Shown one piece after another: positions 15,459 to 30,470 of a DNA stretch of 46,159 nucleotides. Within the stretch, counting starts at the first letter, position 1, and each line of letters opens with the position of its first letter. Origin of the DNA: a virus; the IMG/VR virus record IMGVR_UViG_3300017917_002531, positions 1 to 46,159 of that record; one strand, given 5' to 3'. The notes beneath the pieces were generated by a model. That model worked only from the letters and a program-made list of their open reading frames with translations, was not told the DNA's origin and did no database searches. A program made the position numbers and the translations under genes.

Positions 15459-15465
15459 ATAAATA
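15459..15465 (+). promoter_or_regulatory. T4-type late promoter for the head-protein block
   Basis: ATAAATA with C following, the exact late core. The first gene starts at 15521, leaving an unusually long leader of about 50 bases that contains a hairpin (15477-15497). Confidence 0.55.
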
Positions 15466-15520: not shown

Positions 15521-15868
15521 ATGAAATTACTTGAATTCTTCAGCAAACAAAACTCAGACGAAGATGATGCTAAAATCGAAGTAGATTTAGAAAAGGATCT
15601 TATGGGATTTATTCTAGATGACGATGATCTTTATAAAGAGCACATTCTTCCCTTAATATCTAAAATTAAAAAGGGTAAGAAAGTGGCGGCAGAAGACTTT
15701 ATGAAAGCAGTTAATCAAGGATGTTTAAAGTTTTATAAAGAAAAAGACTTCAAAAAAGACCCCAACAAAATGTTTCCAATCAAAATGAGGAAGAAAATAG
15801 CAGGTAATTTGTTGACTATCAATACTAAAGGCTCAAAAAAAGATGAAGATTCAAGAACTATTGATTGA
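15521..15868 (+). CDS. Putative internal head protein, N-terminal targeting motif
   Basis: 115 residues. The N-terminus MKLLEFFSK resembles the recurring MKIxELL motif of the following genes, but the L-x-E cleavage site is not present in its first 20 residues. The remainder is acidic then Lys-rich and helical, with KKGKKVAAEDFMKAVNQGCLKF and a basic C-terminus. No enzyme motif. It opens the late block and overlaps the metallopeptidase gene by 26 bases. A small DNA-associated or core protein is possible. Confidence 0.55.
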   Translation: MKLLEFFSKQNSDEDDAKIEVDLEKDLMGFILDDDDLYKEHILPLISKIKKGKKVAAEDFMKAVNQGCLKFYKEKDFKKDPNKMFPIKMRKKIAGNLLTINTKGSKKDEDSRTID

Positions 15869-16229
15869 GAGTATAATAAAACCAGATCTGCTGAATATGT
15901 TTCTTAAACACTGTTCAGAAGAATTAGGGTTAGAATCTTTGCCTGAAATTAATTTAGTAGACGATAAACAGTACTCTATTGAACATAAGTCCTTTGGCGG
16001 TTATCAACCAGGTGAACAATCAATTATATTAGCCACTAAAAATAGGCATCCTGTAGATATCTTTAGAACATTAGCTCACGAATTGACACACTACAAACAA
16101 GATTTAGATGGTAAACTTGAGAATGATGATGTTGGTAAAACTGGTAGTCCAGAAGAAAATGAAGCTAATGCAATGGCAGGGATAATAATGCGTAATTTTG
16201 GTCAAAAATTTCCAGAAGTATTTGAATAA
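15843..16229 (+). CDS. Zinc metallopeptidase-like internal head protein
   Basis: 128 residues. The first nine, MKIQELLIE, followed by Ser, form a T4-like capsid-targeting sequence with a predicted prohead-protease cut after Glu9 (L-I-E/S). The body has a zincin motif AHELTH (HExxH, His79-Glu80-His83) and a downstream acidic ligand in ENEANA (Glu107), the pattern of small gluzincin-like proteases and SprT- or ImmA-like domains. It would cut proteins; the target is unknown. Because of the targeting motif I infer that it travels inside the capsid. Confidence 0.75.
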   Translation: MKIQELLIESIIKPDLLNMFLKHCSEELGLESLPEINLVDDKQYSIEHKSFGGYQPGEQSIILATKNRHPVDIFRTLAHELTHYKQDLDGKLENDDVGKTGSPEENEANAMAGIIMRNFGQKFPEVFE

Positions 16230-16238
16230 GGACCAAAA

Positions 16239-17252
16239 ATGCGTATTAAAGAATTATTTGAAGGCGGCTGGGATACTACATTAACACAGAACACTGTGTT
16301 AAAGCCTGCCATCGTAAGTCACGCATTAAAAATTGTTGATCAATTTGTCATCGACTTTAATAACTATACCAAATCACAAGGAGTTCCTGCTATTAAACGT
16401 GGTACTCCAACAGGCAGTAGTGCGTATCATGAAGTTGATTCTAAAGAAAATCCTGATGTTGTTTATGGAGATATTGACTTACAAATGATTGCACCTATCC
16501 AGCAAGGCATGAGTACAGCTCAGTTTAATAGTTTTTGGAATAAGTTAGCAGATGACTTTGCTAAGAGCGGACAAGTAAATTATATTGACACAACAGAAAG
16601 TAAACCAGGTCATCCAATATTTGCTCTTGGCAATGATCAATATGTACAAGTAGATTTTATGTGGCATCCAGTTGAATTAGCTGACTGGGGTGCGGCACGT
16701 GTAACGCCAGAACGAGGTGTTAAAGGTTTACTAATGGGTAACATGTTTAGCGTATTAGGTGAGTTGCTGGACATGAGTATACAACACGCAGGCGTACAAC
16801 TAAAAGTTGTTGACAATCAACACGTGCCATTTAGTAAACAAAAAGGCACACAAGTCGTTACAATTTCAATTAATCCAAAAACATTCGTTTATGATATTTT
16901 TGCATACGAAGCAAAACAAATGGGTATTAGAAATCCAAAAATAGATGCATTGTTAAAACAGTATCCAGGAACCAATACACAAGACGTCAAAATTGCAACA
17001 TTGGTAAATGCTGTTAAAGGGTTTGCTAACAGTGTAGAAGTAAATGACATGTTTGGAAAAGGCGATTTTGCTAATTTTTCTAACGCACAAGATTTCTTAA
17101 ATAAATTTGTAGCACGTTACGATGAGAAAGCACAAATTGATATTGCTGGTAAGAAACGTGATAAAGCACAAACACCAGATGCTATTGCACGTGCCAATGC
17201 TGATAGAGAAAAAATACAAAAAGGCCTAGATATGGTTAAAGGGTTATTCTAA
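16239..17252 (+). CDS. Polymerase-beta-fold nucleotidyltransferase, probable internal head protein
   Basis: 337 residues. N-terminus MRIKELFE followed by Gly gives a targeting motif with cut site L-F-E/G. The catalytic signature of polymerase-beta-like nucleotidyltransferases follows: a GS motif (59-60), the carboxylates DID (78-80, in VVYGDIDLQ) and the third Asp (139, in YVQVDF). The C-terminal 150 residues are helical and of unknown role. Family members add nucleotides to RNA, antibiotics or proteins. The substrate here is unknown. A second, distantly related member lies at 17629. All three acidic residues are intact. Confidence 0.75.
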   Translation: MRIKELFEGGWDTTLTQNTVLKPAIVSHALKIVDQFVIDFNNYTKSQGVPAIKRGTPTGSSAYHEVDSKENPDVVYGDIDLQMIAPIQQGMSTAQFNSFWNKLADDFAKSGQVNYIDTTESKPGHPIFALGNDQYVQVDFMWHPVELADWGAARVTPERGVKGLLMGNMFSVLGELLDMSIQHAGVQLKVVDNQHVPFSKQKGTQVVTISINPKTFVYDIFAYEAKQMGIRNPKIDALLKQYPGTNTQDVKIATLVNAVKGFANSVEVNDMFGKGDFANFSNAQDFLNKFVARYDEKAQIDIAGKKRDKAQTPDAIARANADREKIQKGLDMVKGLF

Positions 17253-17629
17253 TGAGAGCAAAAGAATTTATAACTGAAGTATCAGAAAAGAAAATTACAA
17301 ATAGACAAGGCCAATCGGCTGCTGGTATAAATTTGTACACTGATGCTGAAAGAAGGAATAGTGACTACGTGTCGTATCGTTTAGGTATGGCTGTTGCGTG
17401 TACTGACGGAACAAATGATCCTGATATGCCAGCAAAAAGTTGGTCTGATAAGAGCAAGTCCACACATCCATATACACCACAAGAACAAGAAATGCTCAAA
17501 AGAGCCTACAAAGCAGTAGGAGCCAACTGGAAAGATTTAACACACGGTGATATGAAGAGTCAAGAATTGAAAACTACTAATACTGTTAGTCCTGTGGCAA
17601 AAATTAAAAAGAACAAGTACGGTGTATAA
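17252..17629 (+). CDS. Probable internal head protein, unknown fold
   Basis: 125 residues. It starts MRAKEFITE followed by Val, a variant of the targeting motif with I-T-E before the predicted cut, although Val is not the usual next residue. The body contains YRLGMAVACTDG and a Thr/Tyr/Pro-rich HPYTPQEQEMLKRAYKAVG segment. No catalytic motif. Its ATG overlaps the stop of the upstream nucleotidyltransferase, and the second nucleotidyltransferase follows with a one-base overlap, so it may be a partner or adaptor of these enzymes. Confidence 0.6.
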   Translation: MRAKEFITEVSEKKITNRQGQSAAGINLYTDAERRNSDYVSYRLGMAVACTDGTNDPDMPAKSWSDKSKSTHPYTPQEQEMLKRAYKAVGANWKDLTHGDMKSQELKTTNTVSPVAKIKKNKYGV

Positions 17630-18459
17630 TGAAAATAATTGAACTATTAGAAAGCGGAAAAAGATTAGCCAAACAAGGCGTTGAGATTTCTCGAGTAGAC
17701 AAAGATGCTTTCACAAAAGCCAAAGCAATTATCAAACCTATTCTTGATAAAGCTAAACTAATGTCTGGTTGGACTGCTGGTGGTGCTGGAAGTTTTGATC
17801 CAGAGCACCCTTATGGTGGAGGTGGCAGAGATGATAGTGGCGATATTGACATCATGATAGACCCACAGAACTTATTAAAAAGTTTTCCACCAGATGTTCA
17901 AGGATATAATACAGCAAGTCCTAAGCCATTAGGTCCAAAAGCAATGGCCAACGCTATGGCAGATCCTTCTAAAAAATCTAGAATAGAATTAAGTGCAAGT
18001 AAATGGGCACTAGCAAATTACATGACTAGTAACGGTTTACCTACTGATCCAGGAACATTAACTGTTGAATACACCGCGGATGGAAAAAGTTATTCAGTTG
18101 ATTTAATTGTAAGACCTAAAGAATCTTGGGAACTACATTCACATGATTTCACAAGAGACCCTGGAATGAAAGGCGGGCAACTATTTACAGATGTCTATCC
18201 TACTTTAGTAAAATTAGCCAGTAAGTCTACGTTTGTAGATCCAAAGACAGGTGAAGAAAAAGGTAGTTTACAGTACAGCCCAGATAGAGGTTTGGTAGAT
18301 AGAGAAACTAATCAAGTAGTTGCTATTAATAAAAATGACATTGCTAAAATATTATTAGGACCACAGGCAACAGCAAGAGACATGTCTAGTATTTCTGGAA
18401 TTAAGGACGCACTTAAAAATGATCCTGCAAAACTGAGCCAAGTGTTCCCACAAAGTTAA
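17629..18459 (+). CDS. Second polymerase-beta-fold nucleotidyltransferase, probable internal head protein
   Basis: 276 residues. N-terminus MKIIELLE followed by Ser: targeting motif with cut site L-L-E/S. The nucleotidyltransferase signature is present: GGAGSF (51-56), DID (72-74, in SGDIDIMID) and a third Asp (158, in YSVDLIV). The order of motifs matches the protein at 16239, but the sequences between them are unrelated, so this is either an ancient duplication or two independent captures. The C-terminal 100 residues are Ser/Asp-rich. Substrate unknown. Confidence 0.75.
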   Translation: MKIIELLESGKRLAKQGVEISRVDKDAFTKAKAIIKPILDKAKLMSGWTAGGAGSFDPEHPYGGGGRDDSGDIDIMIDPQNLLKSFPPDVQGYNTASPKPLGPKAMANAMADPSKKSRIELSASKWALANYMTSNGLPTDPGTLTVEYTADGKSYSVDLIVRPKESWELHSHDFTRDPGMKGGQLFTDVYPTLVKLASKSTFVDPKTGEEKGSLQYSPDRGLVDRETNQVVAINKNDIAKILLGPQATARDMSSISGIKDALKNDPAKLSQVFPQS

Positions 18460-18462
18460 AAA

Positions 18463-18469
18463 ATAAATA
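18463..18469 (+). promoter_or_regulatory. T4-type late promoter, leaderless
   Basis: ATAAATA followed by six bases and the ATG at 18476, so the expected +1 falls on the start codon. It lies directly after the stop of the nucleotidyltransferase gene. Confidence 0.5.
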
Positions 18470-18475
18470 CATATT

Positions 18476-21088
18476 ATGAACTTATTTGAGCTGTTTAAAC
18501 CTACTAAAAATATCATTATGGAAGGCATTGACCATCCAGAAGATCTCATTATCTCTCAAGGTAGTGCAGGTGCTGACAGAGTTTTAGCAGATTTAGCCAG
18601 TTTGCAAAAAGATCCAAGTACAGTAAGTGTAAAATGGGATGGATTTCCTGCTGTCGTCTTTGGTAGAGACAAGACTGGCAAACTTGTATTCATGGACAAA
18701 CACATGTATGACAAGGTTGTCAACGGAAAACTGGAGTTCATGTCCATTAAAGATTATGACATTTCTAGAGAAGCAAATCGTGCTAATCTATGGGAAACAG
18801 AAAGTGCTCTACGTCCAACTTTAGATAGGTTAATACCAAATGTAAAAGATCAATATTGGATGGGCGACTTAATGTGGACTGGCACACCTAAAACAAATGA
18901 TGGCTATTTTGTTTTTAAACCTAACACTGTTGAGTACCGAGTTAAAATTGACGACACCCCAGGTAGGGGTAATACATTAAGTGACCAAATCGCCCGTAGT
19001 ATTGGCGGCATTGCTGTACACACTTTTATTCCTGGTTTAGGTCAAACTGATCAACCGTTAATTGGTTTGAAAGGTTTGAAAGAAAATGAAGGCATAGTTT
19101 TCCTTGTAGGTGAAATGAAGGATAAACCAAAAGTTGGTATTAATCCTGAACTATTAAATCAAACCAAAAGTATTATTAACCAACACAGAGACGCTGTGGA
19201 CAAATTTATCTCTGACTTAACTGCAATGAAAGGCAAGTCAGTTATCACAGCTATGGGACCGTTTATCACACGTATGCTTGAAGAAGATGATATATCAGGT
19301 AACATTGTTCCAAGATTTTTAGAATTTCTAAAAGAACGTTTAAATGATACAGCGCAAAACAAATTCTTAGGTACTAAAAAAGACGGATGGCTGTATCAAG
19401 AGCAAGGTGGTGGTCCTGGTCTATTAGGTATTTGGACCATGTGGGCCGCAATCACTGAATTAAAAAATCACATTAAACAACAGATTGATACACAACAACA
19501 GGGCAGTGAAATTATTGCTATCACTGATGGTGTCAATGCACACGAAGGATATGTGTTTGGGTCAGGCAAAGACAAATTAAAATTAATTGATCGTTTAGGA
19601 TTTAGTCGTGCAAACTTTGCCAAACATCGTGTACCAGATGAAGAAGTAGAAGCAAAAAGTAAAATGCCTATGGCAGTTTTTTGCTTTGGTCGTATGAATC
19701 CGCCAACACTAGGACACGGTCTTGTTATACAAAAAACTTTAGATTTAGGCGGAGAGAACGCTTTTGTATTTTTAAGTAGCAGTCATGATTCTGCTGACAA
19801 CCCAATTGATCCAAGAACTAAGGCGCAGTTCGTAGCACAAATATATCCTAATGCTGCCGATCGACTTGTGCAAGATTTCGTACAAACTCCAATATTTGCA
19901 GCCAATTGGCTATATGCTAAAGGCTTTAGAAACATGACGTTTGTTGCAGGTAGTGATAGATTAGGCAAAGAAAAAGGCAGTATTGAAAAACTTTTAAACA
20001 GTTGGAATAGTGGCCCAATACGCTCCACTGATCCTGCTGGAGCAAGAGAGCATGTTGTTATTAAATTTGAGAGTAGTGGTCAGCGTGATCCTGATGCCGA
20101 GGGGGTGACAGGCTACAGTGGCACTAAGGCTCGCCAAGCAGCGGCAGCTGGCAACGAGCAAAAGTTCCAAGAATATACAGGTGTTGGTCCTGAAGTCGTT
20201 GTAAACGGCAAAACATTATATCAAGCAACAAGAGAAGGTATGGGAATTAAAGATGAAAAACCAACTGCCCAACCAGCTCCTGTTAAACAACCTGCTCAAC
20301 AACTTGCACAACCCAAGTTGCAAGTAACTAAGAAAGTTCCTGGTAAAGCCCCTGTTAGTAAGGAAGTAGATTCTATGAACGAATCAAAACTACGTGATAA
20401 AGATGATTTAAAAGCAAAACGTAAAGCATTACAAGATATTCAGATGGACAAACACACACATAAAGATCCAGAATTAAAAGCTGAGCTGGCAAGACGTAAA
20501 GCCGCATTAGAAAAAGAAGCTAAAAAAATGAACTTGTCTGAATCAATTGTACACGCATACGGCATTTACGAAGAACAACAATCATTATTAGATAAACTAA
20601 AATCTGCATTTCAAAGTCAAAGTCCAATAAGCGACAGAGTAAAATACGGCGATACTACATATCCTAAAACATCTTTGCAAAAAACAAGAGACGAATTTCA
20701 ATCAGGAACATTAAAAAATGTTGATCCCAATAGTACCATTGGAAGATTAAATCAACGTAATGCAGATATCAAAGCCGCAGGTGACGAATTAAAAGAAGCT
20801 CCAATTGAAATGGATCCACAAAATCCAAATGACCCAATGGTCATGCCTCCTGGTCTTAATCCAGGTAAGCTAAGTTACAGAAAAGCAAGAGCAGCCGCAC
20901 AACTAGCAGATTTAGCACGTATGGCGGCTCAAGCAAATGAAAAAAATAGTGCCGCAATGTGGGACAGCATTGTTAGACACTTTCCAGAATTAGAAACAAA
21001 TATTCGTAGCATACAGCATGGACAAGAAGAATTAGAAAAAGTAAGACGTAAAGGCGGAGTACGTAGTAGAGGAATAAATCCATTATGA
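18476..21088 (+). CDS. Ligase-like plus NMNAT-like fusion, probable internal head protein
   Basis: 870 residues in three parts. Residues 1-16 end in I-M-E before Gly17, a predicted prohead-protease cut. Residues about 30-375 look like a covalent nucleotidyltransferase (polynucleotide ligase type): motif I KWDG (53-56, Lys53 would be adenylated), motif III-like GDLMWTG (130-136), motif IV EGYVF (357-361) and motif V KLKLIDR (367-373). Residues about 398-575 form an adenylyl/cytidylyltransferase domain with TLGH (411-414, HxGH type) and SGTKAR (548-553, ISTTR type), as in NMN adenylyltransferases. The C-terminal 270 residues are charged, with another possible cut L-S-E/S near residue 686. Substrate unknown; NAD or RNA-end chemistry is a guess. 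Confidence 0.75.
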   Translation: MNLFELFKPTKNIIMEGIDHPEDLIISQGSAGADRVLADLASLQKDPSTVSVKWDGFPAVVFGRDKTGKLVFMDKHMYDKVVNGKLEFMSIKDYDISREANRANLWETESALRPTLDRLIPNVKDQYWMGDLMWTGTPKTNDGYFVFKPNTVEYRVKIDDTPGRGNTLSDQIARSIGGIAVHTFIPGLGQTDQPLIGLKGLKENEGIVFLVGEMKDKPKVGINPELLNQTKSIINQHRDAVDKFISDLTAMKGKSVITAMGPFITRMLEEDDISGNIVPRFLEFLKERLNDTAQNKFLGTKKDGWLYQEQGGGPGLLGIWTMWAAITELKNHIKQQIDTQQQGSEIIAITDGVNAHEGYVFGSGKDKLKLIDRLGFSRANFAKHRVPDEEVEAKSKMPMAVFCFGRMNPPTLGHGLVIQKTLDLGGENAFVFLSSSHDSADNPIDPRTKAQFVAQIYPNAADRLVQDFVQTPIFAANWLYAKGFRNMTFVAGSDRLGKEKGSIEKLLNSWNSGPIRSTDPAGAREHVVIKFESSGQRDPDAEGVTGYSGTKARQAAAAGNEQKFQEYTGVGPEVVVNGKTLYQATREGMGIKDEKPTAQPAPVKQPAQQLAQPKLQVTKKVPGKAPVSKEVDSMNESKLRDKDDLKAKRKALQDIQMDKHTHKDPELKAELARRKAALEKEAKKMNLSESIVHAYGIYEEQQSLLDKLKSAFQSQSPISDRVKYGDTTYPKTSLQKTRDEFQSGTLKNVDPNSTIGRLNQRNADIKAAGDELKEAPIEMDPQNPNDPMVMPPGLNPGKLSYRKARAAAQLADLARMAAQANEKNSAAMWDSIVRHFPELETNIRSIQHGQEELEKVRRKGGVRSRGINPL

Positions 21089-22140
21089 AAATTAGACAAC
21101 TTTTAGAAGGCTCCAAGCCTCAAAAAATTCCTGCAAGTAAACCACGCAACTTTGTTGTTAAAAATCAACCAACAACGGGTGCTGGTGCGCATAGAGATAA
21201 AAAGAAAGAACAGAAACAAGGTTATGAAAAACATAAGAGTAAAGAATTTGCAGAAACCTTTACCGATGACGTTAAAGATACCGTTTCTAATGCGGCATCA
21301 AAAGTAGGCGATGCTGTAGCAAATGTTTTGCCTAAAGAAATGCGTCCTTTTGATAATCAAACAGCGGCAAATTTTTCAAACAATATTGCAAAACAACCAA
21401 CTCCTACAACTGCAAAAACAAAATTAGCAGTAAAAGAAAGTTTATCTGAGCAATATGTTGGTATTAGTTCTCATAAAGATCAAGGGTTATCAAGAGATAT
21501 GGCAACACAAAATGCACATATTGAATTAATGAAAAGGAAATATGGACCAGAATTTCAAAATAAACCTGGTGTGTTGATTCATTATAATCAGTCACATAAA
21601 ATGGTTCCTGATGAAAAAAAGCCTGGAAATTTTCATACTACGACGACATTAACTCCAAAGGATTACACCTTGTCGCCAAACTTGACAGCGAGGCACAGTT
21701 TAGACCCTAATCAAGACTATGATTACTATTACAAAGGAGAAAAGATGGAAACTGATCATCCTCTCTATAATAAAGTCAAACAAACACATCTTGATAGTAT
21801 GAAACCTGAACCAAGTAATTTAGATGAAAATAATAGAAATCCAGATCTAATGAGTGCTACAGATTACGACCGTTATCAACAAAGTCAAATGGATGCTGAT
21901 AAACGAGCATTTAAACGTCAAGAATTAGAACACGAACTAAGTCATGAGGATACAGGATATTATCAAGTAATGATTGCTAGAAATGGTAAATGGGATTACG
22001 CTAAAGTTCAACCTCGTCGTGAAGGTATGAACGCTGCCATGGATATTATTAGAAATTTACACAACAAGTATCCAAGTATGCACTTAGGTATGTTATATCC
22101 TAATGGTAAAGTAGAGAATTTTGGAAAAGGTAGAAGATAA
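21085..22140 (+). CDS. Probable internal head protein, unknown function
   Basis: 351 residues. N-terminus MKIRQLLE followed by Gly: targeting motif with cut site L-L-E/G. The next 50 residues are strongly basic (HRDKKKEQKQGYEKHKSKE), suited to contact packaged DNA. A second domain (about 120-240) is Tyr/His-rich, and the last 60 residues (from YYQVMIARNGKWDYAKVQ) look like a small alpha/beta module. No catalytic motif recognised. It overlaps the 870-residue gene by four bases (ATGA) and abuts the Dps-like gene. Confidence 0.6.
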   Translation: MKIRQLLEGSKPQKIPASKPRNFVVKNQPTTGAGAHRDKKKEQKQGYEKHKSKEFAETFTDDVKDTVSNAASKVGDAVANVLPKEMRPFDNQTAANFSNNIAKQPTPTTAKTKLAVKESLSEQYVGISSHKDQGLSRDMATQNAHIELMKRKYGPEFQNKPGVLIHYNQSHKMVPDEKKPGNFHTTTTLTPKDYTLSPNLTARHSLDPNQDYDYYYKGEKMETDHPLYNKVKQTHLDSMKPEPSNLDENNRNPDLMSATDYDRYQQSQMDADKRAFKRQELEHELSHEDTGYYQVMIARNGKWDYAKVQPRREGMNAAMDIIRNLHNKYPSMHLGMLYPNGKVENFGKGRR

Positions 22141-22574
22141 TGGACAAGTATCATTTAGCACTTAAAACAGCATTTGCTAGTGAGTATGCTTTTTATTTGA
22201 AAGCACAGAATTTCCACTGGAATGTGGAAGGAATGTTCTTTGAACAATTTCATAGTTTGTTTGGAAAAATTTACGAAGAAGTTGGAGATGTCATTGACGA
22301 CTTTGCAGAAAATCTACGCAAAGTAAATACCTACGCTCCTGGTAGTTTTAGAAGATTCAGTATGCTCAGCGAAATTGATGATGAAACACAGATTTTAGAA
22401 GCGACAAGTATGTGTGCATCATTATTGGCTGATAGTGAAAAAATGGAAGAAATTTTTAAAATAACCTATCAAATGGCAGAGGATAACAAAGATTTTGGAT
22501 TAGCAAACTTTTTGGCAGAGCGTCAAGATGCACACGCTAAACACAGTTGGATGTTGAGAGCAACATTAAAATGA
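22140..22574 (+). CDS. dps: Dps/ferritin-like protein
   Basis: 144 residues, about the length of small Dps proteins. The Dps signature is present: AQNFHWNVEGMFFEQFHSLFGKIYEEVGDVIDDFAE, with the His and Asp/Glu residues (about 28, 39, 43, 55, 59) that form the inter-subunit ferroxidase site. Dps forms a 12-subunit shell that oxidises iron and, in some bacteria, binds DNA. It has no targeting motif, yet it lies inside the block of targeted genes with overlapping start and stop. It may protect DNA or iron-dependent enzymes during infection. Confidence 0.85.
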   Translation: MDKYHLALKTAFASEYAFYLKAQNFHWNVEGMFFEQFHSLFGKIYEEVGDVIDDFAENLRKVNTYAPGSFRRFSMLSEIDDETQILEATSMCASLLADSEKMEEIFKITYQMAEDNKDFGLANFLAERQDAHAKHSWMLRATLK

Positions 22575-22864
22575 AACAATATAGGATCACTACAGAACAT
22601 TTAAATCAAGACAGTTTAGACGACTGCTATCTTGATCCTAATGATCCTATACATGAATTAAAAATAGTTCAACATCTAGCAGGGTTAAATTCAATTAATC
22701 GATTACAAGAGTATAAGGGAATGCAAGGCAGTAATATTAGTGCTACAGGTTCTGAAAAAGGTAGAATACAAAGAGAACATAATATTAGACCTGGAACTCC
22801 TGAATGGTTTAAACTATGGTTTAGTTTACCTTATATGACTGGTGAAAGGCCTATAGAAAAATGA
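22571..22864 (+). CDS. Conserved phage protein, unknown function
   Basis: 97 residues from the ATG at 22571, which overlaps the Dps stop (ATGA). An in-frame TTG at 22547 inside dps is rejected. Features: YRITTEHLNQDSLDDCYLDPNDPIHEL at the N-terminus and PGTPEWFKLWFSLPYMTGERP at the C-terminus, which resembles a small conserved protein of aquatic phages. No catalytic or membrane motif. Its stop overlaps the next start. Function unknown. Confidence 0.6.
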   Translation: MKQYRITTEHLNQDSLDDCYLDPNDPIHELKIVQHLAGLNSINRLQEYKGMQGSNISATGSEKGRIQREHNIRPGTPEWFKLWFSLPYMTGERPIEK

Positions 22865-23952
22865 AAATACAAGACCTATTAGAATATAGTTTAGACATTG
22901 ATAAAAATTCCCGTCTTGGCCAAATTATTGATAAAACTAGTGCGAAAGATGCTATTGAAAAAATTGGAAATTCTTTTTCAAATATTTTTAAATCAGATTC
23001 AGATACAGGGTCTGATGTAGAAGTGCAGTCACCTAAATCAGTATCTAAAGGTAGAAATAAAAAGACCGTTGACATGTCTGATATGGATGCAGAATTTGAA
23101 AGACAAGGAATTAAAGATCCATATGTTAAAAAAGCCTTAATGGGTAAGTTTCATCAAGAGGCAGGTGCCAAATTAGGTACCACTGAAATCCCATTTAGAA
23201 ATACGCCTAACGATAGAATAAGAGATAAAATTCCACAATTAGCACACATGAGTGATGCAGAACTAAACGCATTAAAAGCTGATGATAGAGCATTTTTTAA
23301 CAAAGCCTATGGCGGTGTTATAGGTAACAGAGATCCTGACGACGGTTGGAAATATAGAGGAAGAGGACTCACTGGATTAACTGGTAAACAAAATTATGCT
23401 GATGCAGACGCGGCATTAGGATTAAAGGGGGAACTTGTTAAGAATCCTGATTTATTACTGGATCCAGAAATAGATAAGAAGGCAGCAGTTTGGTATTATA
23501 AACGTGCAGGTGCAGACAAGTTATCATTCAATAATCAAGAAGAAGCTAATATGTGGGCCATACATAAAGCCGGTGGAAGAGCTTATGCTCCTGGTACTAG
23601 ATTGGGCAAAGTTGCTCTAGCAGACCTTAATAAGAAAACTTCTAATATGCCTGGAAGTATTAGCGTTGATACCAATATTGCCAGAGGAAGCGATACCGGT
23701 AACGTATTAGGCGGAGGCAGTGATACTGGTAAAGTATTAGCTGGAGGAGCATTACTAGCAACAGCGAGCGAATTAATTAATAAGTACAAGACAGAACTTC
23801 CTCAATTTATGGCTTCATTAAAAGACGAACCTAGCGAAGAAGGAATCTCGTTAATAATTAATGGTAAGAAAAAGAAATTCAAAAATAAGAAAGAAGCAGA
23901 GATGGCATTTAAATTGGCTAGAGAGCAAGGACTAAAAGTAGATTATGCGTAA
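22861..23952 (+). CDS. GH19-domain muralytic protein, probable internal head protein
   Basis: 363 residues. N-terminus MKIQDLLE followed by Tyr gives a targeting motif whose P1' residue (Tyr) is atypical. Residues about 85-265 hold a GH19 domain: FHQEAG (catalytic Glu), YGGVIGNRDPDDGW and KYRGRGLTGLTGKQNYADA, the same GRG-x-x-x-LTG signature as the endolysin at 7020. A Gly/Ser linker (GSDTGNVLGGGSDTGKVLAGG) with an internal repeat and a Lys-rich tail follow. I infer a virion-borne enzyme that opens peptidoglycan during DNA entry, distinct from the lysis endolysin. Confidence 0.75.
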   Translation: MKIQDLLEYSLDIDKNSRLGQIIDKTSAKDAIEKIGNSFSNIFKSDSDTGSDVEVQSPKSVSKGRNKKTVDMSDMDAEFERQGIKDPYVKKALMGKFHQEAGAKLGTTEIPFRNTPNDRIRDKIPQLAHMSDAELNALKADDRAFFNKAYGGVIGNRDPDDGWKYRGRGLTGLTGKQNYADADAALGLKGELVKNPDLLLDPEIDKKAAVWYYKRAGADKLSFNNQEEANMWAIHKAGGRAYAPGTRLGKVALADLNKKTSNMPGSISVDTNIARGSDTGNVLGGGSDTGKVLAGGALLATASELINKYKTELPQFMASLKDEPSEEGISLIINGKKKKFKNKKEAEMAFKLAREQGLKVDYA

Positions 23953-24589
23953 ACCAGAAGTTTATTTGGATATGGACGGTGTTATAGCTGACTTTTTTAC
24001 AGAGTATGCTAAACTTGCCGGTATTGAAAGTGGCAACTATAGGGACATTCCGCCAGCTAAAACAGATCCCACATTAAACAAAATGATAGGAACTGATTTT
24101 TTTGCACGATTACCAAAATGTCCAAATGCAGATGCTTTAGTGGATATGGTAGTAAAAACATTTGGTCGCTTTCATATTTGTTCTAGTCCTCTTAGAGGTG
24201 ATTTTGAAAATAGCGAAAAACAAAAAAAGATCTGGCTTGCAAAAAATTTAAAACACCAACCAACAGATGTAATTATTACACCAAATAAAGCCAAATATGC
24301 TGTACAAGCAGACGGAACACCAAATATATTAATTGATGATAGAGGTAGTAATATTAGCTCATGGGAAGCAAAAGGTGGCATTGGAATCAAATATCAAGCA
24401 GACGAAGATAGTTTACAAGTTATAGTAGATGGTATTAAGAGAGCATTCAAAGTAATTAAAGGTGAACAAAAACACGAACCGCAAAAATTACAAAGTTTAG
24501 ATAGAAGTAGTGGTAATTTGATTGCAAAAAGTGGTGACGATGAAGAACAAAGTTCTAATCCTAAAATACCTGGCAAGGAGCAGAGATGA
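23945..24589 (+). CDS. HAD-superfamily 5'-nucleotidase-like phosphatase
   Basis: 214 residues. HAD motif I DMDGVIADF (Asp9 nucleophile, Asp11), motif II Ser in FHICSSPLRGDF, a Lys in the IITPNKAKYA segment and motif IV IDDRGSNI. This is the layout of 5'(3')-deoxyribonucleotidases (NT5C type), which remove phosphate from (deoxy)nucleoside monophosphates. The last 40 residues are a charged, disordered tail absent from the family. It overlaps the GH19 gene by eight bases and has no targeting motif. Confidence 0.8.
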   Translation: MRKPEVYLDMDGVIADFFTEYAKLAGIESGNYRDIPPAKTDPTLNKMIGTDFFARLPKCPNADALVDMVVKTFGRFHICSSPLRGDFENSEKQKKIWLAKNLKHQPTDVIITPNKAKYAVQADGTPNILIDDRGSNISSWEAKGGIGIKYQADEDSLQVIVDGIKRAFKVIKGEQKHEPQKLQSLDRSSGNLIAKSGDDEEQSSNPKIPGKEQR

Positions 24590-25401
24590 AGATTTCTGAA
24601 TTATTAACTGAAGCCGATATGCCAGAAGAATTAAATGATACTCCTGTGGTTGCTTTTGGAGATCATAAGTTAACTGCTGGCGATGTTGCAGGCGTATTAC
24701 CAGGCGTTAGTGCTGAAGACGTTATTGAACAAGGAAAAAGTTTAAGAGATTTTCTTTCAACGAAAATCAAAGGCGATTATACAAGAGCGGATGCACTGAT
24801 AGACATTGCAACTTTTTATCCTGCATTTAGAATCACTAAATGGGCATTGGCTGGGAGAGCGGGTGCAGGCGCTGTGGGTAAAGAAGTGACCAAAAGTGCT
24901 CTAAAAAAAGAAGTTGGAAAAGAAGTTGGTAAAAAAGTTGATATACTACCTACAATGAAAAATAATGAGAAATCATCTAGCGGTGGCGGATCTCCTTCAA
25001 ATCCCACTAAAGTTGGATCACTATCTAAAAAAAGAAAATATCAAATAGGCGATCAAGTTCCAGTTGATATTAAGGGTAGAAAAGAAGTAGGTGTTGTAGC
25101 CAATATATTACCTTCAGGATATGAAGTTGATATCAGTCACGTTAAAGATGCTCCAACTAAATCTGTCAAAATTCCAGAACCTATGTTTGAAGAGGCCAGT
25201 GCAGGTGCCACATCTGCTGGTAATATTGCCAGCACAGGAAATAGTCCGCATATAGCCGCAGGCAGTCCTGCTGTTTTGAAACGATGGAGCGGAGAGCCTG
25301 GGAAGATGGGCAAAAGTATCAAACCTCCCAAGTCAGAACCACAAGACGCAGACGACAACCCTGTCACGAATCCCAAAGTTGGCAACAACCTAATTTCATA
25401 A
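24586..25401 (+). CDS. Probable internal head protein, unknown function
   Basis: 271 residues. N-terminus MKISELLTE followed by Ala: a targeting motif with cut site L-T-E/A, the best match to the T4 consensus. The body has an Ala/Gly-rich helix, a Lys-rich segment, a small strand-rich domain with YQIGDQVPVDIKGRKEVGVV (KOW-like appearance) and a C-terminal Ser/Gly/Pro tail that starts after MFEEASAGATSAG, a stretch that recurs at the ends of phage head proteins. No enzyme motif recognised. It is the last gene with the N-terminal motif. Confidence 0.65.
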   Translation: MKISELLTEADMPEELNDTPVVAFGDHKLTAGDVAGVLPGVSAEDVIEQGKSLRDFLSTKIKGDYTRADALIDIATFYPAFRITKWALAGRAGAGAVGKEVTKSALKKEVGKEVGKKVDILPTMKNNEKSSSGGGSPSNPTKVGSLSKKRKYQIGDQVPVDIKGRKEVGVVANILPSGYEVDISHVKDAPTKSVKIPEPMFEEASAGATSAGNIASTGNSPHIAAGSPAVLKRWSGEPGKMGKSIKPPKSEPQDADDNPVTNPKVGNNLIS

Positions 25402-25407
25402 TAAATA
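25401..25407 (+). promoter_or_regulatory. T4-type late promoter
   Basis: ATAAATA just after the stop of the preceding gene (TAA at 25399-25401), followed by TAGTATTGGAG and the ATG at 25429. No -35 box is visible. Confidence 0.5.
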
Positions 25408-25428
25408 TAGTATTGGAGACATAACATT

Positions 25429-26823
25429 ATGCCAGCAAAGAGTAAAGCACAACAGAAATTCATGGGCATGGTTCATGCCGCTAAAAAGGGCGAAAAACCT
25501 GCTAGTAAAGAGGTAGCAAAAGCTGCCAAAGGTATGACTAAAAAAGCCGCCAAGGATTTTGCCGGAACTAAACACAAAGGACTTCCTGAAAAAGTCAAAA
25601 AAGTTGATGAAGTAGCTGGTCCAGAAAAATGTTGGCCTGGTCATAGAAAAGTGGGCACTAAACCTGGTACAGGTAAGAACGCTGGCAAGCGTGTAAACGA
25701 CTGTGAAAAAATTGACGAAGCGTTACTAAGAGAATTTGAAGAACACATTGCTGAAGTAAAAATTACTTCAGGCCCAAACAAAGGAAAGGATTGGAGTCCA
25801 AATACTCCTGGTCCAACAAACAAAAATTATAAAGAAATTGATGGTAATATTCCTAGTCCCCCAGATGGCGCGACTGCTCCTCCACCAGGATATAAACCAC
25901 CTCAACCTAAAAAAGACAAACGTGCTTCTGTAGATGTAGACGACGCAGAAATGACTGCCGAAGCAAAACAAACATACGGTGGTAAAGGAAAACAAATGAC
26001 CAAATCAGAACATGATGCTGACGTAAAGAAAAAGAAAGAAAAAGAAAAGATGAAGAAAATGGCCGAAGCATTTATGCAGATTGGTCGTTTAGAGCAAATG
26101 ATTTTTGAAGCTAAAAAGTCTAAAAAGAAAGAAGATAAGGTTGAAGAAGATCCTAATGAAGGCAACGCATTTGGCAAGGCTGTACGTGATGCTAAAAAAG
26201 ACGGAATCCAAAAAGGCGAAAAAGTCAAAGTAGGCGGTAAGGAATATCCTGTCAAAGAATCAAGTAAAGAAGAAAAATGTAATCATACACCAAAAGGTAA
26301 GAAGTGTCCAGTACACGGTCTAAAAGAATGTGGTATGTATGAAGGCAATGACGGTAACTTAGCCAACAATGCCAAACCATACGATAAAGTAACACGTGGT
26401 GATGTTATTGCAGGTCGTCTAGGCAAGGACGAAATGGGTGGTAAGAAAAAGAAAGATAAAAAGACCACTGAAACTTTTATGCCTAGCAAAGATACAGGCA
26501 CAAAGTATCCAACAGTAGGCGGACCAGTTGGTAAGGGAATTCAAAAAGCAGGCGAGCTTGTTGGTAAAGGAATTGAAAAGGTAGTAGACAAGGTAAAAGG
26601 TGCGACTGGTGAAATAGGAACAAAGACAGACGAGTCCTATACTGTTAACGGAAAGAAAGTATCCAAGGCCGCTTATGAAAAAGAAATGGCTAAAGCTGGT
26701 AAAGGAAAGAAAAAAGTCAAAGAAGGATGGACACATGATACACTAGCCGCAGAGCTATTCGAAAGCGGCGACGAGTATATGGTCACATTACACAACAAAT
26801 TGGCAAAACAAATAAAAGGTTAA
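25429..26823 (+). CDS. Lys-rich head-associated protein (DUF3008-like N-terminus)
   Basis: 464 residues, very rich in Lys, Glu and Gly. The N-terminus MPAKSKAQQKFMGMVHAAKKG matches the start of DUF3008-type proteins. A CWPGHRKVGTKPGTGKNAGKRVNDC module (Cys-x-Gly...Cys) and two more Cys-containing stretches (CNHTPKGKKCPVHGLKEC) look like small metal- or disulphide-stabilised units. At least two possible prohead-protease sites occur inside (I-F-E/A near 227, L-F-E/S near 443). I infer a basic, processed core or internal protein that binds DNA; it is not a recognised enzyme. A terminator follows. Confidence 0.6.
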   Translation: MPAKSKAQQKFMGMVHAAKKGEKPASKEVAKAAKGMTKKAAKDFAGTKHKGLPEKVKKVDEVAGPEKCWPGHRKVGTKPGTGKNAGKRVNDCEKIDEALLREFEEHIAEVKITSGPNKGKDWSPNTPGPTNKNYKEIDGNIPSPPDGATAPPPGYKPPQPKKDKRASVDVDDAEMTAEAKQTYGGKGKQMTKSEHDADVKKKKEKEKMKKMAEAFMQIGRLEQMIFEAKKSKKKEDKVEEDPNEGNAFGKAVRDAKKDGIQKGEKVKVGGKEYPVKESSKEEKCNHTPKGKKCPVHGLKECGMYEGNDGNLANNAKPYDKVTRGDVIAGRLGKDEMGGKKKKDKKTTETFMPSKDTGTKYPTVGGPVGKGIQKAGELVGKGIEKVVDKVKGATGEIGTKTDESYTVNGKKVSKAAYEKEMAKAGKGKKKVKEGWTHDTLAAELFESGDEYMVTLHNKLAKQIKG

Positions 26824-26831
26824 ACCAACAT

Positions 26832-26854
26832 AACAGGGCACTAGTTGCCCTGTT
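26832..26854 (+). terminator. Terminator-like hairpin after the late head-protein block
   Basis: Nine-bp perfect stem AACAGGGCA (26832-26840) with TGCCCTGTT (26846-26854) and a CTAGT loop, nine bases after the stop. Only a short T-run follows, so strength is uncertain. Confidence 0.65.
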
Positions 26855-26869
26855 CTTACGACTTGGGTG

Positions 26870-26898
26870 TTGACTTTATATAATTACTCTGCTACAAT
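26870..26898 (+). promoter_or_regulatory. Sigma70 promoter for the dsbA-like operon
   Basis: TTGACT (26870-26875), 17-bp spacer, TACAAT (26893-26898). The leader carries AGGAG before the ATG at 26926. It starts 16 bases after the terminator hairpin. Confidence 0.8.
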
Positions 26899-26925
26899 AA
26901 GCAAATATAACTATTAGGAGTAATT

Positions 26926-27258
26926 ATGTCCCGAGTATTTGGAGCCCCTGAACAAGCCAAACTTAAACAACTGGTAAAAGATGGTTGGCAAGTGTTAGAC
27001 GAAATCAAAAGTCTACAAGAAGGTCTCAACGAAACAATTAAAGCAGTAGCAGAAGAACTAGATGTAAAACCCAGTGTTATTAAAAAGGCGATACGTACTG
27101 CAATGAAGGATGACTGGGAACAAACTGCCAAAGACTTCAGTGATTTAGAAGATATTGTTCATACTACTGGTCATGCTGGTGCATGGAATCAACCTGCAAC
27201 AAAACCAGTAGTAACAACACAAGGTTCAAATGATTCAGACGATTCAGCGCCATTTTAA
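26926..27258 (+). CDS. DsbA-like double-stranded DNA-binding protein (T4 late-transcription type)
   Basis: 110 residues. The central 70 residues (LKQLVKDGWQVLDEIKS, EELDVKPSVIKKAIRTAMKDDW, DFSDLEDIVHTTG) match the pattern of the small T4 DsbA family, which binds duplex DNA near late promoters. The acidic, disordered C-terminus (NDSDDSAPF) is an addition. The function in T4 is not essential and not fully understood. The family call is by pattern, so moderate confidence. Its last 29 bases overlap the next gene. Confidence 0.6.
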   Translation: MSRVFGAPEQAKLKQLVKDGWQVLDEIKSLQEGLNETIKAVAEELDVKPSVIKKAIRTAMKDDWEQTAKDFSDLEDIVHTTGHAGAWNQPATKPVVTTQGSNDSDDSAPF

Positions 27259-27535
27259 AAATACCAAAGAATGGGTTGTTGCTGATTGGCAGTCTAATCC
27301 GTGGCGCTTATCTGCTGAAACATATAACGCATTTACAGCATTAGCTACCGCTGTTATATTTGCGCAGATGGCGCCAAATGTCCCTTACGGCATTACATAT
27401 CCTCTTTGGCTTAGCGGAACATTTTTAATGATATTCTGCGGTATAAGTCGTGGTAGTTTTGGCATGGTAGTGATGAGCGTTGTTATGACGATCATAGACA
27501 CTTATGGGTATATTAGATTTTTGTTAACTACATGA
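27230..27535 (+). CDS. Small multi-pass membrane protein
   Basis: 101 residues. A basic N-terminus with EWVVADWQSNPWRL (a motif I associate with small phage membrane proteins) is followed by about three hydrophobic segments (about 33-48, 58-72 and 76-97). The only ATG is inside the previous gene (27230), a 29-base overlap; no ribosome binding site there is strong, so translation may be coupled. Its stop overlaps the next ATG. Function unknown. Confidence 0.6.
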   Translation: MIQTIQRHFKNTKEWVVADWQSNPWRLSAETYNAFTALATAVIFAQMAPNVPYGITYPLWLSGTFLMIFCGISRGSFGMVVMSVVMTIIDTYGYIRFLLTT

Positions 27536-27666
27536 TTACAAAAATAATAGCGGAAATATTACTGAACTGGGTAGCCATGGGAATTATTTTATCTTTGGTT
27601 ATGGCGGTATTTCTTTATTTTGCTGTATTCTGTGAAAAAATAGTTGATAGTATTTTTAAAAGATAA
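27532..27666 (+). CDS. 44-residue membrane protein
   Basis: A 44-residue gene. ATG at 27532 overlaps the previous stop (ATGA), stop at 27664-27666. Residues 13-34 are a single hydrophobic helix and the C-terminus is basic (KR). It completes the two-gene membrane module before the DNA polymerase. Function unknown. Confidence 0.5.
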   Translation: MITKIIAEILLNWVAMGIILSLVMAVFLYFAVFCEKIVDSIFKR

Positions 27667-27685
27667 GTACTTATGAGAAAGGTTG

Positions 27686-27703
27686 ATCCAGCCATAATTG
27701 GAT
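27686..27703 (+). promoter_or_regulatory. Upstream hairpin with loop GCCATAAT (polymerase leader)
   Basis: Stem ATCCA/TGGAT (five bp) closing the eight-base loop GCCATAAT (27691-27698). The second hairpin at 27712 has the identical loop and an unrelated stem, so the loop, not the stem sequence, appears to be the conserved element. Confidence 0.6.
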
Positions 27704-27711
27704 ACGTAGGT

Positions 27712-27731
27712 TTGCAAGCCATAATTTGCAA
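27712..27731 (+). promoter_or_regulatory. Hairpin with loop GCCATAAT touching the polymerase ribosome binding site
   Basis: Stem TTGCAA/TTGCAA (six bp, extendable by a U-G pair) closing GCCATAAT (27718-27725). The 3' side of the stem abuts GGAG, the ribosome binding site of the polymerase gene. T4 gp43 represses its own translation by binding a hairpin with an eight-base loop at this position, so an equivalent operator is likely. Confidence 0.65.
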
Positions 27732-27740
27732 GGAGAAAAA

Positions 27741-30416
27741 ATGAGTTATATTGACGCGATGTGGGATCGCGACAAAGACGTTGTTCACGTTGTTGAACGT
27801 GACGAAAAAGGCGTTAGACGTTTTGTTGACTATCCCGTAAAATACACTTTCTATTACCCAGACAACAAGGGTAAATTTCATAGCATATTTGGAGAATCAC
27901 TATCCAAAGTCACTGCTAGAAGTTTTAAAGAATTCACAAAAGAACAAAAAATACACAGCAATCATACATTGTATGAAAGCGACATCAATCCAGTGTTCCG
28001 TGTTTTAGAGGAACACTATCTAGGACAAGAACCTCCAAAACTACATGTTGCATTTTTTGACATTGAGGTAGATTTTGATCCTGAGAGAGGCTATGCTAGT
28101 CCTGACGATGCGTTCATGCCTATTACTTCTATCGCTGTTCATTTACAGTGGTTAGATACATTGGTCTGTCTTGCTGTTCCACCAAAAACATTAACCATGG
28201 AGCAGGCAAAGGAAGAGATAAAAGATTTTCCAAATACAATTTTATTTGAAACAGAAGCTGAATTGCTTGACACTTTTCTAACATTAATTGAAGATGCGGA
28301 TGTACTAACAGGCTGGAACAGCGAAGGTTATGATATACCTTACACAGTTAATCGTGTTATAAAGGTATTGAGCAAAGAGGATACTAAACGTTTTTGCTTA
28401 TTTGATCAATATCCGCGTAAAAGAGAATATGAAAAATTTGGTAGAACTGCTACTACATATGATTTAATTGGTAGAGTACATTTGGATAGTTTGGAAGTCT
28501 ATCGAAAATACAAGTATGAAGAAATGCACAGCTATAGACTTGATGTCATTGGCGAACTTGAAGTTGGTGAAAAGAAAACTCAATATGAAGGAACATTAGA
28601 CCAACTGTATAATAAAGACTTTAGAACCTTTATTGAATATAATAGGCAAGATACTGCACTATTAGATAAAATGGACAGGAAATTGAAATTCCTAGATCTT
28701 GCAAATGTGTTAGCACACGGCAACACAGTATTGTTACAGACAACAATGGGTGCTGTAGCTATGACAGAGCAGGCGATTATTAACGAAGCCCATCAACATG
28801 GTTTAATCGTTCCAAGTAGGACACGCAAATCTGAACAAGGCGATACTGCGGCAGCAGGTGCTTATGTTGCATTTCCCAAAAAAGGACTTCATGATTGGAT
28901 TGGCGCAATTGACATTAACTCTCTGTATCCGTCAGCTATTCGTGCATTAAACATGGGACCAGAAACCATTGTTGGTCAGCTACGACAGACTAAAACACAA
29001 GAATTTATTGAATCACAAATGACTCTACACAAAAAGTCTTTTGCTGGTTCTTGGGAAGACAAATTTGGTACTGTAGAATACGAAGCGGTCATCAATCAAG
29101 ACAAAGCAGAAGAAATTACTATTGATTGGGAAAACGGCGAAGTGTCTGTTCATAGTGGTGCTGAAATCTATGAAATGATTTTTAACAGTCATAAGCCCTG
29201 GATATTAAGTGCTAACGGTACAATCTTTACATACGAAAAAGAAGGTATCATTCCTGGACTACTTAAACGTTGGTACAGTGAACGTAAAGATATGCAGAAA
29301 AAATCCAAAGAGGCAGAAAAGGCCGGTAATACAGTTGAAGCTGAATACTGGGACAAGAGACAAATGGTGCGTAAAATTAATTTGAACTCATTGTATGGCG
29401 CTTTGCTAAATCCTGGATGCCGCTTCTTTGATAAGCGTATTGGGCAAAGTACTACCTTAGTTGGTCGTCAAGTTGCTAGACATATGGCTAGTAAAATAAA
29501 TGAAATCATATGCGGCACATATGATTACAAGGGCAAAAGCATTATTTACGGTGACACTGACTCTTGTTATTTTAGTGCTTGGACTACCTTGAAATCAGAA
29601 GTAGAAAAGGGAAATTTAACCTGGGATAAGGACACTGTTGTTTCTTTATACGACCAAATTGCAGAAGAAGTTAATGAAAGTTTTCCACAATTTATGCTTG
29701 ATTACTTTCATGTACCTAAGTCACGTGGGGAAGTTATTAAAGGTGGACGAGAACTAGTAGCTGTTAAAGGCTTATTCATTACTAAAAAGAGATATGCAGT
29801 TCTTATCTATGATAAAGAAGGTAAACGTATAGACGTAGATGGAAAGCCAGGTAAGATCAAAGCTATGGGATTAGATCTTAAACGTTCAGATACTCCTGAC
29901 TATATGCAAAACTTTTTAGAAGAAATTCTTTTAGACGTACTACAAGGTAAGGAAGAACAATTTGTATTAGATAAAATTATTGAGTTTCGAAGAGAATGGA
30001 AAACCCGTGCAGGTTGGGAGAAAGGTAGTCCTCGTCGTGCTAATAATATTACAGAATACGCTGAACAAGAACGTAAACAAGGCAAAGCAAATATGCCAGG
30101 TCACGTTAGAGCTGCCATTAATTACAACAGGTTACGTGATCTAAACGGCGACAAGTATTCCATGCAAATTGTTGATGGAATGAAAGTATATGTTTGTAAA
30201 CTGAAAAATAACGCACTAGGTTATACTAGCGTTGCTTATCCAGTAGACGAACTGAAAATTCCTAAATGGTTCCAAGAGCTTCCTTTTGATGATGTTGCTA
30301 TGGAACAGACAATTATCGATAATAAGATTGATAACCTTATTGGAATACTTGAGTGGGATATTAGTAGTACTACAGACAGCGGAACTACTTTTAATAAATT
30401 GTTTGATTTTGAGTAA
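27741..30416 (+). CDS. 43: Family B DNA polymerase (T4 gp43-like)
   Basis: 891 residues from the ATG at 27741, with AAGGAG upstream; an in-frame TTG at 27726 lies in the hairpin and is rejected. The proofreading domain has DIE (107-109), NSEGYDIP (Exo II) and YNRQD (Exo III). The polymerase domain has motif A DINSLYPS (from 391), motif B KINLNSLYG and motif C YGDTDS (603-608), all with intact catalytic acids. Length agrees with T4 gp43 (898). It replicates the phage genome with the clamp (30471) and clamp loader (3179). Two hairpins at its leader suggest autogenous control. Confidence 0.96.
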   Translation: MSYIDAMWDRDKDVVHVVERDEKGVRRFVDYPVKYTFYYPDNKGKFHSIFGESLSKVTARSFKEFTKEQKIHSNHTLYESDINPVFRVLEEHYLGQEPPKLHVAFFDIEVDFDPERGYASPDDAFMPITSIAVHLQWLDTLVCLAVPPKTLTMEQAKEEIKDFPNTILFETEAELLDTFLTLIEDADVLTGWNSEGYDIPYTVNRVIKVLSKEDTKRFCLFDQYPRKREYEKFGRTATTYDLIGRVHLDSLEVYRKYKYEEMHSYRLDVIGELEVGEKKTQYEGTLDQLYNKDFRTFIEYNRQDTALLDKMDRKLKFLDLANVLAHGNTVLLQTTMGAVAMTEQAIINEAHQHGLIVPSRTRKSEQGDTAAAGAYVAFPKKGLHDWIGAIDINSLYPSAIRALNMGPETIVGQLRQTKTQEFIESQMTLHKKSFAGSWEDKFGTVEYEAVINQDKAEEITIDWENGEVSVHSGAEIYEMIFNSHKPWILSANGTIFTYEKEGIIPGLLKRWYSERKDMQKKSKEAEKAGNTVEAEYWDKRQMVRKINLNSLYGALLNPGCRFFDKRIGQSTTLVGRQVARHMASKINEIICGTYDYKGKSIIYGDTDSCYFSAWTTLKSEVEKGNLTWDKDTVVSLYDQIAEEVNESFPQFMLDYFHVPKSRGEVIKGGRELVAVKGLFITKKRYAVLIYDKEGKRIDVDGKPGKIKAMGLDLKRSDTPDYMQNFLEEILLDVLQGKEEQFVLDKIIEFRREWKTRAGWEKGSPRRANNITEYAEQERKQGKANMPGHVRAAINYNRLRDLNGDKYSMQIVDGMKVYVCKLKNNALGYTSVAYPVDELKIPKWFQELPFDDVAMEQTIIDNKIDNLIGILEWDISSTTDSGTTFNKLFDFE

Positions 30417-30423
30417 TCTACAA

Positions 30424-30452: not shown

Positions 30453-30470
30453 TAACTACAGGAGATTATA

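Follow-up and report, generated by a model that had tools for sequence, protein, structure and literature searches.

What does a short N-terminal peptide do when nine neighbouring genes with unrelated bodies all begin with it? This question is raised by a 46,159-nucleotide piece of a T4-type phage genome from IMG/VR (record IMGVR_UViG_3300017917_002531, positions 1 to 46,159; hereafter the window), in which genes between positions 15521 and 25401 carry variants of one N-terminal motif, hereafter the tag. In T4, a cleavable capsid targeting sequence (CTS) is known from diverse ejected proteins (PMC3012670, PMC9026906, PMC12373910); it is enough by itself to get a foreign protein packaged, with ejection of the cargo (PMC9026906). 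Here, we analysed the window together with related phage genomes. The nine N-termini are very probably T4-type CTSs, which the gp21 prohead protease would remove, on the products of a packaged enzyme operon. This interpretation had been proposed in an initial annotation of the window, and it is supported by the portability of the tag, by the junction of a glutamate with a small residue, by the gp21, gp20 and gp23 genes of relatives and by virion proteins of cyanophages.

A shared N-terminus in one gene block

The window has 69 called genes, and its DNA polymerase is nearest to those of large T4-superfamily phages (Phosso, Atu_ph07 and CBB; 42-49% identity). Twelve genes on the same strand fill positions 15521-25401, between a ClpA-like gene and the polymerase gene, and nine of them start with the motif M[K/R/N]-φ-x-E-[L/F]-[L/F]-x(0-2)-E, where φ is hydrophobic. 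The nine starts, numbered here as genes 1 to 9, are MKLLEFFSK, MKIQELLIE, MRIKELFE, MRAKEFITE, MKIIELLE, MNLFELFK, MKIRQLLE, MKIQDLLE and MKISELLTE, all located where the initial annotation had reported them. The hydrophobic residues ahead of the glutamate have a T4-like spacing, with spacing variants allowed. The motif is confined to the block and is found nowhere else in the window. When residues 2-16 of every gene were shuffled, which keeps the N-terminal composition, 2,000 trials gave a mean of 0.04 matches and a maximum of 2, against the 9 observed. The three genes interspersed among the tagged ones, which had been described as untagged, do lack the motif, and it is also absent from them in all close relatives.

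A megablast search of the window DNA against phage records gave no match, and tblastn of genes 3, 4 and 5 against phage records found nothing. The relatives include a 245-kb genome with 262 genes, G001, that carries an orthologous block, and a most divergent one, G002 (IMGVR_UViG_3300001580_000005). A profile made from the nine tags ranked genes of the orthologous block as the top 10 of the 262 in G001, with 10.8-18.8 bits, the next gene having 3.7; since the two sets are homologous, this result tests specificity and is not an independent replication. In all, 28 body clusters bear tags, a count that includes single-contig clusters.

The junction between tag and body

Six of the nine tagged genes have a canonical cleavage site, φ-x-E↓[G/S/A] (the arrow marks the predicted cut), that overlaps the tag or comes after it, compared with 2 of the 60 other genes of the window. 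Across the relatives, φ-x-E before a small residue is found in 48 of 89 tagged genes and in 67 of 878 others. The proposal that most tags provide L/I-x-E followed by G, S or A is therefore correct for the six, including gene 6, in which the site (IME↓G) lies 16 residues in, and incorrect for genes 1, 4 and 8. Genes 4 and 8 have the non-canonical sites ITE↓V and LLE↓Y, respectively, and gene 1 has no such site.

The strongest evidence comes from comparison with relatives, in which the tag appears as a separable, swappable module that ends at the glutamate. The body of gene 5, a predicted polymerase-beta-like nucleotidyltransferase (NTase 2), starts with SGKRLA or AGKRLA in tagged relatives, and the tags ahead of it are MKIIELLE, MKITELLFE, MRINELLFE, MRIQELITE, MRAREFVRE, MRAQEFISE, MRALEFIFE, MNFKEFFTE and MLLCELFQRPIKNE. 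Its junctions read MKIIELLE↓SGKRLA, MRAREFVRE↓SGRRLA, MRAQEFISE↓SGKRLA, MNFKEFFTE↓AGKILA and MLLCELFQRPIKNE↓SGKRLA. The tags vary in type and length while the glutamate and the next small residue are constant, the glutamate being invariant in the alignment. Distant NTase 2 homologues in other phages (24-28% identity) are untagged, and most of these start with M followed by SGNALKKLGI, or nearby, which is the predicted mature N-terminus.

Other bodies behave in the same manner. The junction E↓GIDHPEDL of the 870-residue gene 6 family is held under NIIME↓G, KAIME↓G, LLLE↓G, IIIQE↓G and PLNE↓G, and that of the gene 3 family (NTase 1) is constant at E↓GGWD. The tag of gene 4 is MRAKEFITE, MKISELLE↓S, MRINELLIE↓G or MKIREIIEE↓G, depending on the relative, and the body of gene 2 occurs under MRAKEFLSE in G002 and under MNYKQFLRE↓S in Synechococcus phage B23. 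The relatives thus show one motif on many bodies, the pattern that the initial annotation had suggested looking for, and also its converse, a given body behind tags of different types with the junction kept.

Some bodies are fused in relatives. In G002, both NTases form a single 624-residue chain with one N-terminal tag, and AVAE↓AGKRLT stands at the domain junction; the second tag is lost and the cut site is retained. In two other relatives (L117:3983-6631 and L120:3977-6679), one chain has the order tag, NTase 2, ligase-like domain, NMNAT, with the internal junctions VLLE↓GIEHPED and VLME↓GIDHPED, respectively. A cut site that outlasts its targeting residues would fit a polyprotein processed by gp21. 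The L117 and L120 chains end in the CTS-like sequences ISFKEFF and ISFKEFL, and gp93 of the cyanophage S-SCSM1 ends in RTFKEFLEYIE. Because gp21 cuts Alt at its C-terminus, C-terminal tags may exist.

A gp21-family prohead protease is encoded in four relatives. In G001 it is recognised by PF03420 and PHROG 207, and its neighbours are gp20, the portal protein, and gp23 by Pfam. The predicted propeptide of gp23 in G001 ends RRYLAE↓SATAGSTSAGNVATLNR, the site reading RRYLAE↓SATAGSTSAGN. In a tagged protein of the gene 9 family from the same genome, MKIQEIITE is joined directly to TATAGSTSASNIAS, giving MKIQEIITE↓TATAGSTSASNIASTGN (MKIQEIITE↓TATAGSTSASN). Gene 9 of the window has a similar segment in its interior, FEE↓ASAGATSAGNIASTGN, its part E↓ASAGATSAGNIASTGN being encoded at 25192-25239 on the plus strand, which is alike to the residues after the gp23 site. 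The local scores against this gp23 arm are 51 for the G001 protein and 49 for gene 9, compared with 37 for the best unrelated protein. From these alignments, one tagged family appears to mimic the sequence just after the predicted gp23 cut. Two proteins reported in virions, S-CREM2 gp160 and S-SCSM1 gp97, have like copies of the gp23 arm.

Tagged proteins of T4 and of cyanophage virions

The tags resemble the N-termini of the T4 internal proteins IPI, IPII and IPIII (MKTYQEFIAE↓A), which are peptides of about ten residues with hydrophobic targeting positions (PMC9026906, PMC3012670). Cleavage by gp21 after a glutamate, unrelated mature bodies and divergent cargo are further likenesses (PMC9026906, PMC3012670), read here from sequence. 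However, the T4 internal proteins are small inhibitors of GmrSD nucleases, while most of the cargo in the window is made up of larger enzymes encoded by one operon, and the tags are of another subtype (MKI-x-ELL-x-E; MRA-x-EF-x-x-E; MLLxELF...E). The nearest sequences to the tags are the propeptides of T4 Alt and gp24 (MELITELFDE and MAKINELLRE↓S, respectively). Alt is an enzyme that is packaged in the head and ejected, as predicted here for the cargo, but Alt and gp24 are single proteins and gp24 is a shell protein. The IPIII tag has previously been fused to GFP, and a Glu-to-Asp change at the IPIII cut reportedly allows packaging with no processing.

The T4 rules place targeting at residues 4 and 7 and processing at residues 8 and 10 of the CTS (PMC9026906). 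A pattern made from these rules matched 7 of the 278 called genes of T4, including IPII, IPIII, Alt, gp24 and gp2, and it missed IPI. A gapless profile of the window tags ranks the T4 internal proteins low because the spacing differs by one residue. T4 gp2 starts with MAIFQIINE↓S, and T4 gene 61.1 (18966-19130 in NC_000866) starts with the CTS-like MKTFKEFIKE↓D.

The same pattern was applied to the 219 annotated genes of cyanophage S-CREM2, using the virion list in PMC10665884. The test was not fully blind, as some N-termini had been read by eye before the pattern was written. The matching virion proteins are gp6, a S-adenosylmethionine (SAM) hydrolase (MKDFDSFLEE), gp13 (MKDLHSFLTE), gp14, an APH-like kinase (MKRFDAFLTE), gp136 and gp154, a NMNAT (MKNFSSFLTE↓A). 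The pattern was found in 5 of 26 non-structural virion proteins and in 3 of 167 undetected proteins (Fisher p=0.0013); taken over all virion proteins, the enrichment has p=0.02. In S-SCSM1, tested on both sides of the genome middle (98-197 kb), 2 of 154 genes matched, namely the virion-detected NMNAT (MKSFLQFLKE↓A) and gp30, which is not annotated as a virion protein. The NMNAT of S-SM1, a virion protein (PMC3037559), was checked as a candidate for an untagged NMNAT that reaches virions; it does have a tag, MKKFSAFLNE↓A. The NMNATs of S-SSM4, S-RIM2, ACG-2014f and S-SRM01 are also tagged, and that of CBB is untagged.

Predicted mature N-termini are AAESGASVQAK for S-SCSM1 gp91, ADEK for S-CREM2 gp154 and AAVDQPGANPTGPG for S-CREM2 gp12. 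The latter protein (OR473000, L074:7704-10313) is virion-detected and has a Cas9-like annotation; LRFASFMAE↓A is found at its residues 17-25, and it was not counted above. Its sequence suggests a packaged nuclease. In phage C48C1 (L071:11950-13359), the annotated NMNAT start at 12016 interrupts the GRMNPPT motif; with a start at 11950 the motif is whole and the protein gains the tag-like MIKNFSQYLLE.

The virion NMNATs of S-SM1, S-SCSM1 and S-CREM2 are homologous to that of gene 6 and often lie beside a DUF6267 gene, and the detected NMNAT, SAM hydrolase and APH-like kinase bear a tag of T4 type. Unlike in the window, the cyanophage tag is MKxFxxFLxE↓A, and most of the cyanophages examined have no tag on DUF6267 itself. 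The authors of these proteomes suspected packaging and, in the accessible text, name no packaging signal and report presence in virions without cleaved N-termini. The cyanophage data support, independently, the tag as a packaging signal. In the phiKZ-like phage SPN3US, many head-internal proteins are cut C-terminal to a glutamate by the prohead protease gp245 (PMC5694885, PMC10052503), which is similar, but both the protease lineage and the propeptides differ.

Predicted cargo and competing explanations

All genes of the block are on the plus strand. Gene 1 (15521-15868, 115 residues) has the tag MKLLEFFSK without a clear cleavage glutamate, and its orthologues retain MKL[LFV]EFF. Gene 2 (15843-16229, 128 residues; MKIQELLIE↓S at 15843-15869) is metalloprotease-like by PHROG 87 (E=7e-5) and by a visible HELTH motif of the HExxH type. 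Genes 3 (NTase 1; 16239-17252, 337 residues; MRIKELFE↓GGWD, tag at 16239-16262) and 5 (NTase 2; 17629-18459, 276 residues; tag at 17629-17652) are separated by gene 4 (17252-17629, 125 residues; tag at 17252-17278). Pfam gave nothing for either NTase family, and their predicted structures support the assignment as polymerase-beta-like nucleotidyltransferases. Both models have a mean predicted local distance difference test (pLDDT) score of 83 and a palm fold, and in the alignments the D-x-D after GD is invariant. They aligned to polymerases beta, mu and lambda with Z of 10.7 and a root mean square deviation of 3.9 over 183 residues for NTase 1, and Z of 9.4 and 3.8 over 184 residues for NTase 2. 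In the AlphaFold model of NTase 2, residues 1-17 have pLDDT below 50, most of the body exceeds 80, and residues 3-9 form a helix.

Gene 6 (18476-21088, 870 residues) starts with MNLFELFK, and its segment up to the cut, MNLFELFKPTKNIIME↓GIDHPEDL, is encoded at 18476-18523. It matches DUF6267 and cytidyltransferase/NMN adenylyltransferase domains, and a KWDG motif is the sole basis for calling it ligase-like. A sequence search of the Protein Data Bank gave no match for gene 2 or gene 6. Gene 7 (21085-22140, 351 residues; MKIRQLLE↓GS, tag at 21085-21108) is of low complexity. It is followed by the untagged Dps-like gene (22140-22574) and by an untagged gene for a conserved 97-residue protein that starts MKQYRITTEH (22571-22864). 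Gene 8 (22861-23952, 363 residues; tag at 22861-22884) matches GH19 (PF00182) barely above the Pfam cut-off. An untagged gene like HAD-type 5'-3' deoxyribonucleotidases (23945-24589, PHROG 2643) precedes gene 9 (24586-25401, 271 residues; MKISELLTE↓AD, tag at 24586-24612). Directly 3' of the block is a DUF3008-type gene (25429-26823), whose N-terminal 58 residues have 73% identity to S-SCSM1 gp93, a virion protein by mass-spectrometry annotation. Among the functions first proposed for the bodies, the two nucleotidyltransferases, the metalloprotease and the NMNAT part hold, with the ligase label depending on KWDG; the evidence for the metalloprotease and for GH19 is weak, although both assignments are plausible.

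The Flavobacterium phage immuto appears to have NTase, NMNAT and metalloprotease in one chain, 35A_182 (L083:3240-5963), its domains other than NMNAT having been read by eye. The combination of activities in one locus is that of the window, but the parts are fused rather than separately tagged, and the chain has no recognisable tag. The fusion suggests that these parts cooperate. The chain adjoins another NTase-like gene and a 5'-nucleotidase, much like the set in the window. G002 has more tagged genes beyond the block, at 21595-36292, 58760, 62062 and 242823, among which are a tandem pair (22711/23720) and a P-loop kinase-like protein.

Late expression of the block is moderately supported. 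ATAAATA, the core of the T4-type late promoter, is present at 15459-15465 (plus strand), upstream of gene 1, and again at 18463 and 25401. The window has 7 copies, below the 21 expected from shuffling, all 7 on the plus strand and three at the block, and the canonical T4 late promoter, TATAAATA, shows no enrichment there (1 copy against 5 expected). In G001, no other 7-mer is as over-represented upstream of genes as ATAAATA. This concentration in G001, set beside the low counts in the window, allows moderate support only. PADLOC gave only weak matches at chance level. Elsewhere in the window, the product of 39319-40167 has an N-terminus that, by eye, is like that of QueE-type radical SAM enzymes, which may hint at deazaguanine DNA modification.

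In the mechanism that we propose, the enzymes would be made late, and each would be docked by its tag on the core of the growing prohead. Cleavage after φ-x-E by gp21 would then free the mature enzyme within the capsid, to be enclosed there along with the DNA and probably to be ejected into the host infected next. The phage would probably load in this way, and deliver with its DNA, a fixed kit of two polymerase-beta-like NTases, a ligase-like/NMNAT fusion, a metalloprotease, a GH19-like protein and others. The two NTases together with the ligase-like enzyme would be suited to repairing the ends of incoming nucleic acid, and NMNAT to supplying nicotinamide adenine dinucleotide (NAD) against NAD-depleting defences. 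The cargo most likely protects or repairs incoming nucleic acid, or acts on NAD or nucleotide pools, early in infection. The packaged enzymes that the initial annotation envisaged are thus retained, whereas its word arsenal goes beyond the evidence, as a repair or NAD kit fits equally.

Several observations weigh against packaging by such a tag. Three of the nine tags lack the canonical site. A close NTase relative (L107) is untagged, as are NMNAT and DUF6267 of P-HM2; tags have evidently been gained and lost on these bodies, so packaging is not required of every homologue. The T4-rule pattern is not enriched in G002, whereas the window motif is. Three of the 167 undetected S-CREM2 proteins match the pattern and some virion-detected ones have no recognisable tag, and the authors of the cyanophage proteomes could not exclude contamination for non-structural hits. 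The gp21 and gp23 genes of the window phage itself lie beyond the 46-kb fragment.

The best surviving alternative, which we consider unlikely, is that the proteins are packaged in a structural or assembly-related role, core-filling or scaffold-associated, and do not act in the next host. Several tagged bodies are of low complexity or have no assignment, similar cleavage sites exist on T4 core proteins (PMC9026906), and the gp23-arm-like segment suggests a head-associated role, for gene 9 alone. However, most bodies are enzyme folds whose motifs look intact, and in T4, Alt and the internal proteins enter the host on ejection and have their action there (PMC9026906, PMC12373910). There is only a slight chance that the tag directs proteins elsewhere, to a replication compartment, a membrane or a cytoplasmic complex, with the gp21-like sites coincidental or processed elsewhere. 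A short helix, as modelled for NTase 2, is a common docking element; against this stand the likeness to the N-termini of T4 IPII, IPIII, Alt and gp24 and to the predicted gp23 cut site, and the tagged proteins detected in virions of cyanophages. Least probable of all is a recombination or translation-initiation cassette, with selection on the DNA at the start codon and no targeting peptide: the genes are tightly packed with start/stop overlaps and T-even internal-protein loci are known to exchange genes, but 47 of 90 codon pairs for the same tag residue differ and variation is greatest at the third codon position, which places conservation at the protein level rather than in recent DNA copying, relatives swap in another peptide of the same pattern with the junction kept, and the internal E↓G/A sites of the fusions are far from start codons.

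Returning to protease-removed packaging tags, the general principle is already known from T4. The tag subtype, the presence of such tags on an enzyme operon of T4-like freshwater phages, the evidence from swapped tags and polyproteins, and the link to cyanophages look new; the literature searched contained no study in which capsid targeting sequences are applied to cyanophages or to marine phages of other kinds, though such papers may exist elsewhere. We give roughly even chances to a broader proposal, taken as a whole: that a modular address, released by protease, is common to T4-like phages in lakes and oceans and brings a conserved entry kit into the head (polymerase-beta-like NTases, ligase-like/NMNAT and metalloprotease, with SAM hydrolase and the protein annotated as Cas9-like in S-CREM2), that the members of this kit can also be made as a polyprotein cut by gp21 in the capsid, and that the prohead protease matures enzymes besides the shell. 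The finding predicts natural polyproteins that are matured by the prohead protease, and it explains the recurrence of NMNAT, SAM hydrolase and kinases in cyanophage virion proteomes. Genes of abundant aquatic phages that are annotated as hypothetical proteins become predicted head cargo, readable from ten residues, and a simple sequence rule is obtained for finding injected phage effectors.

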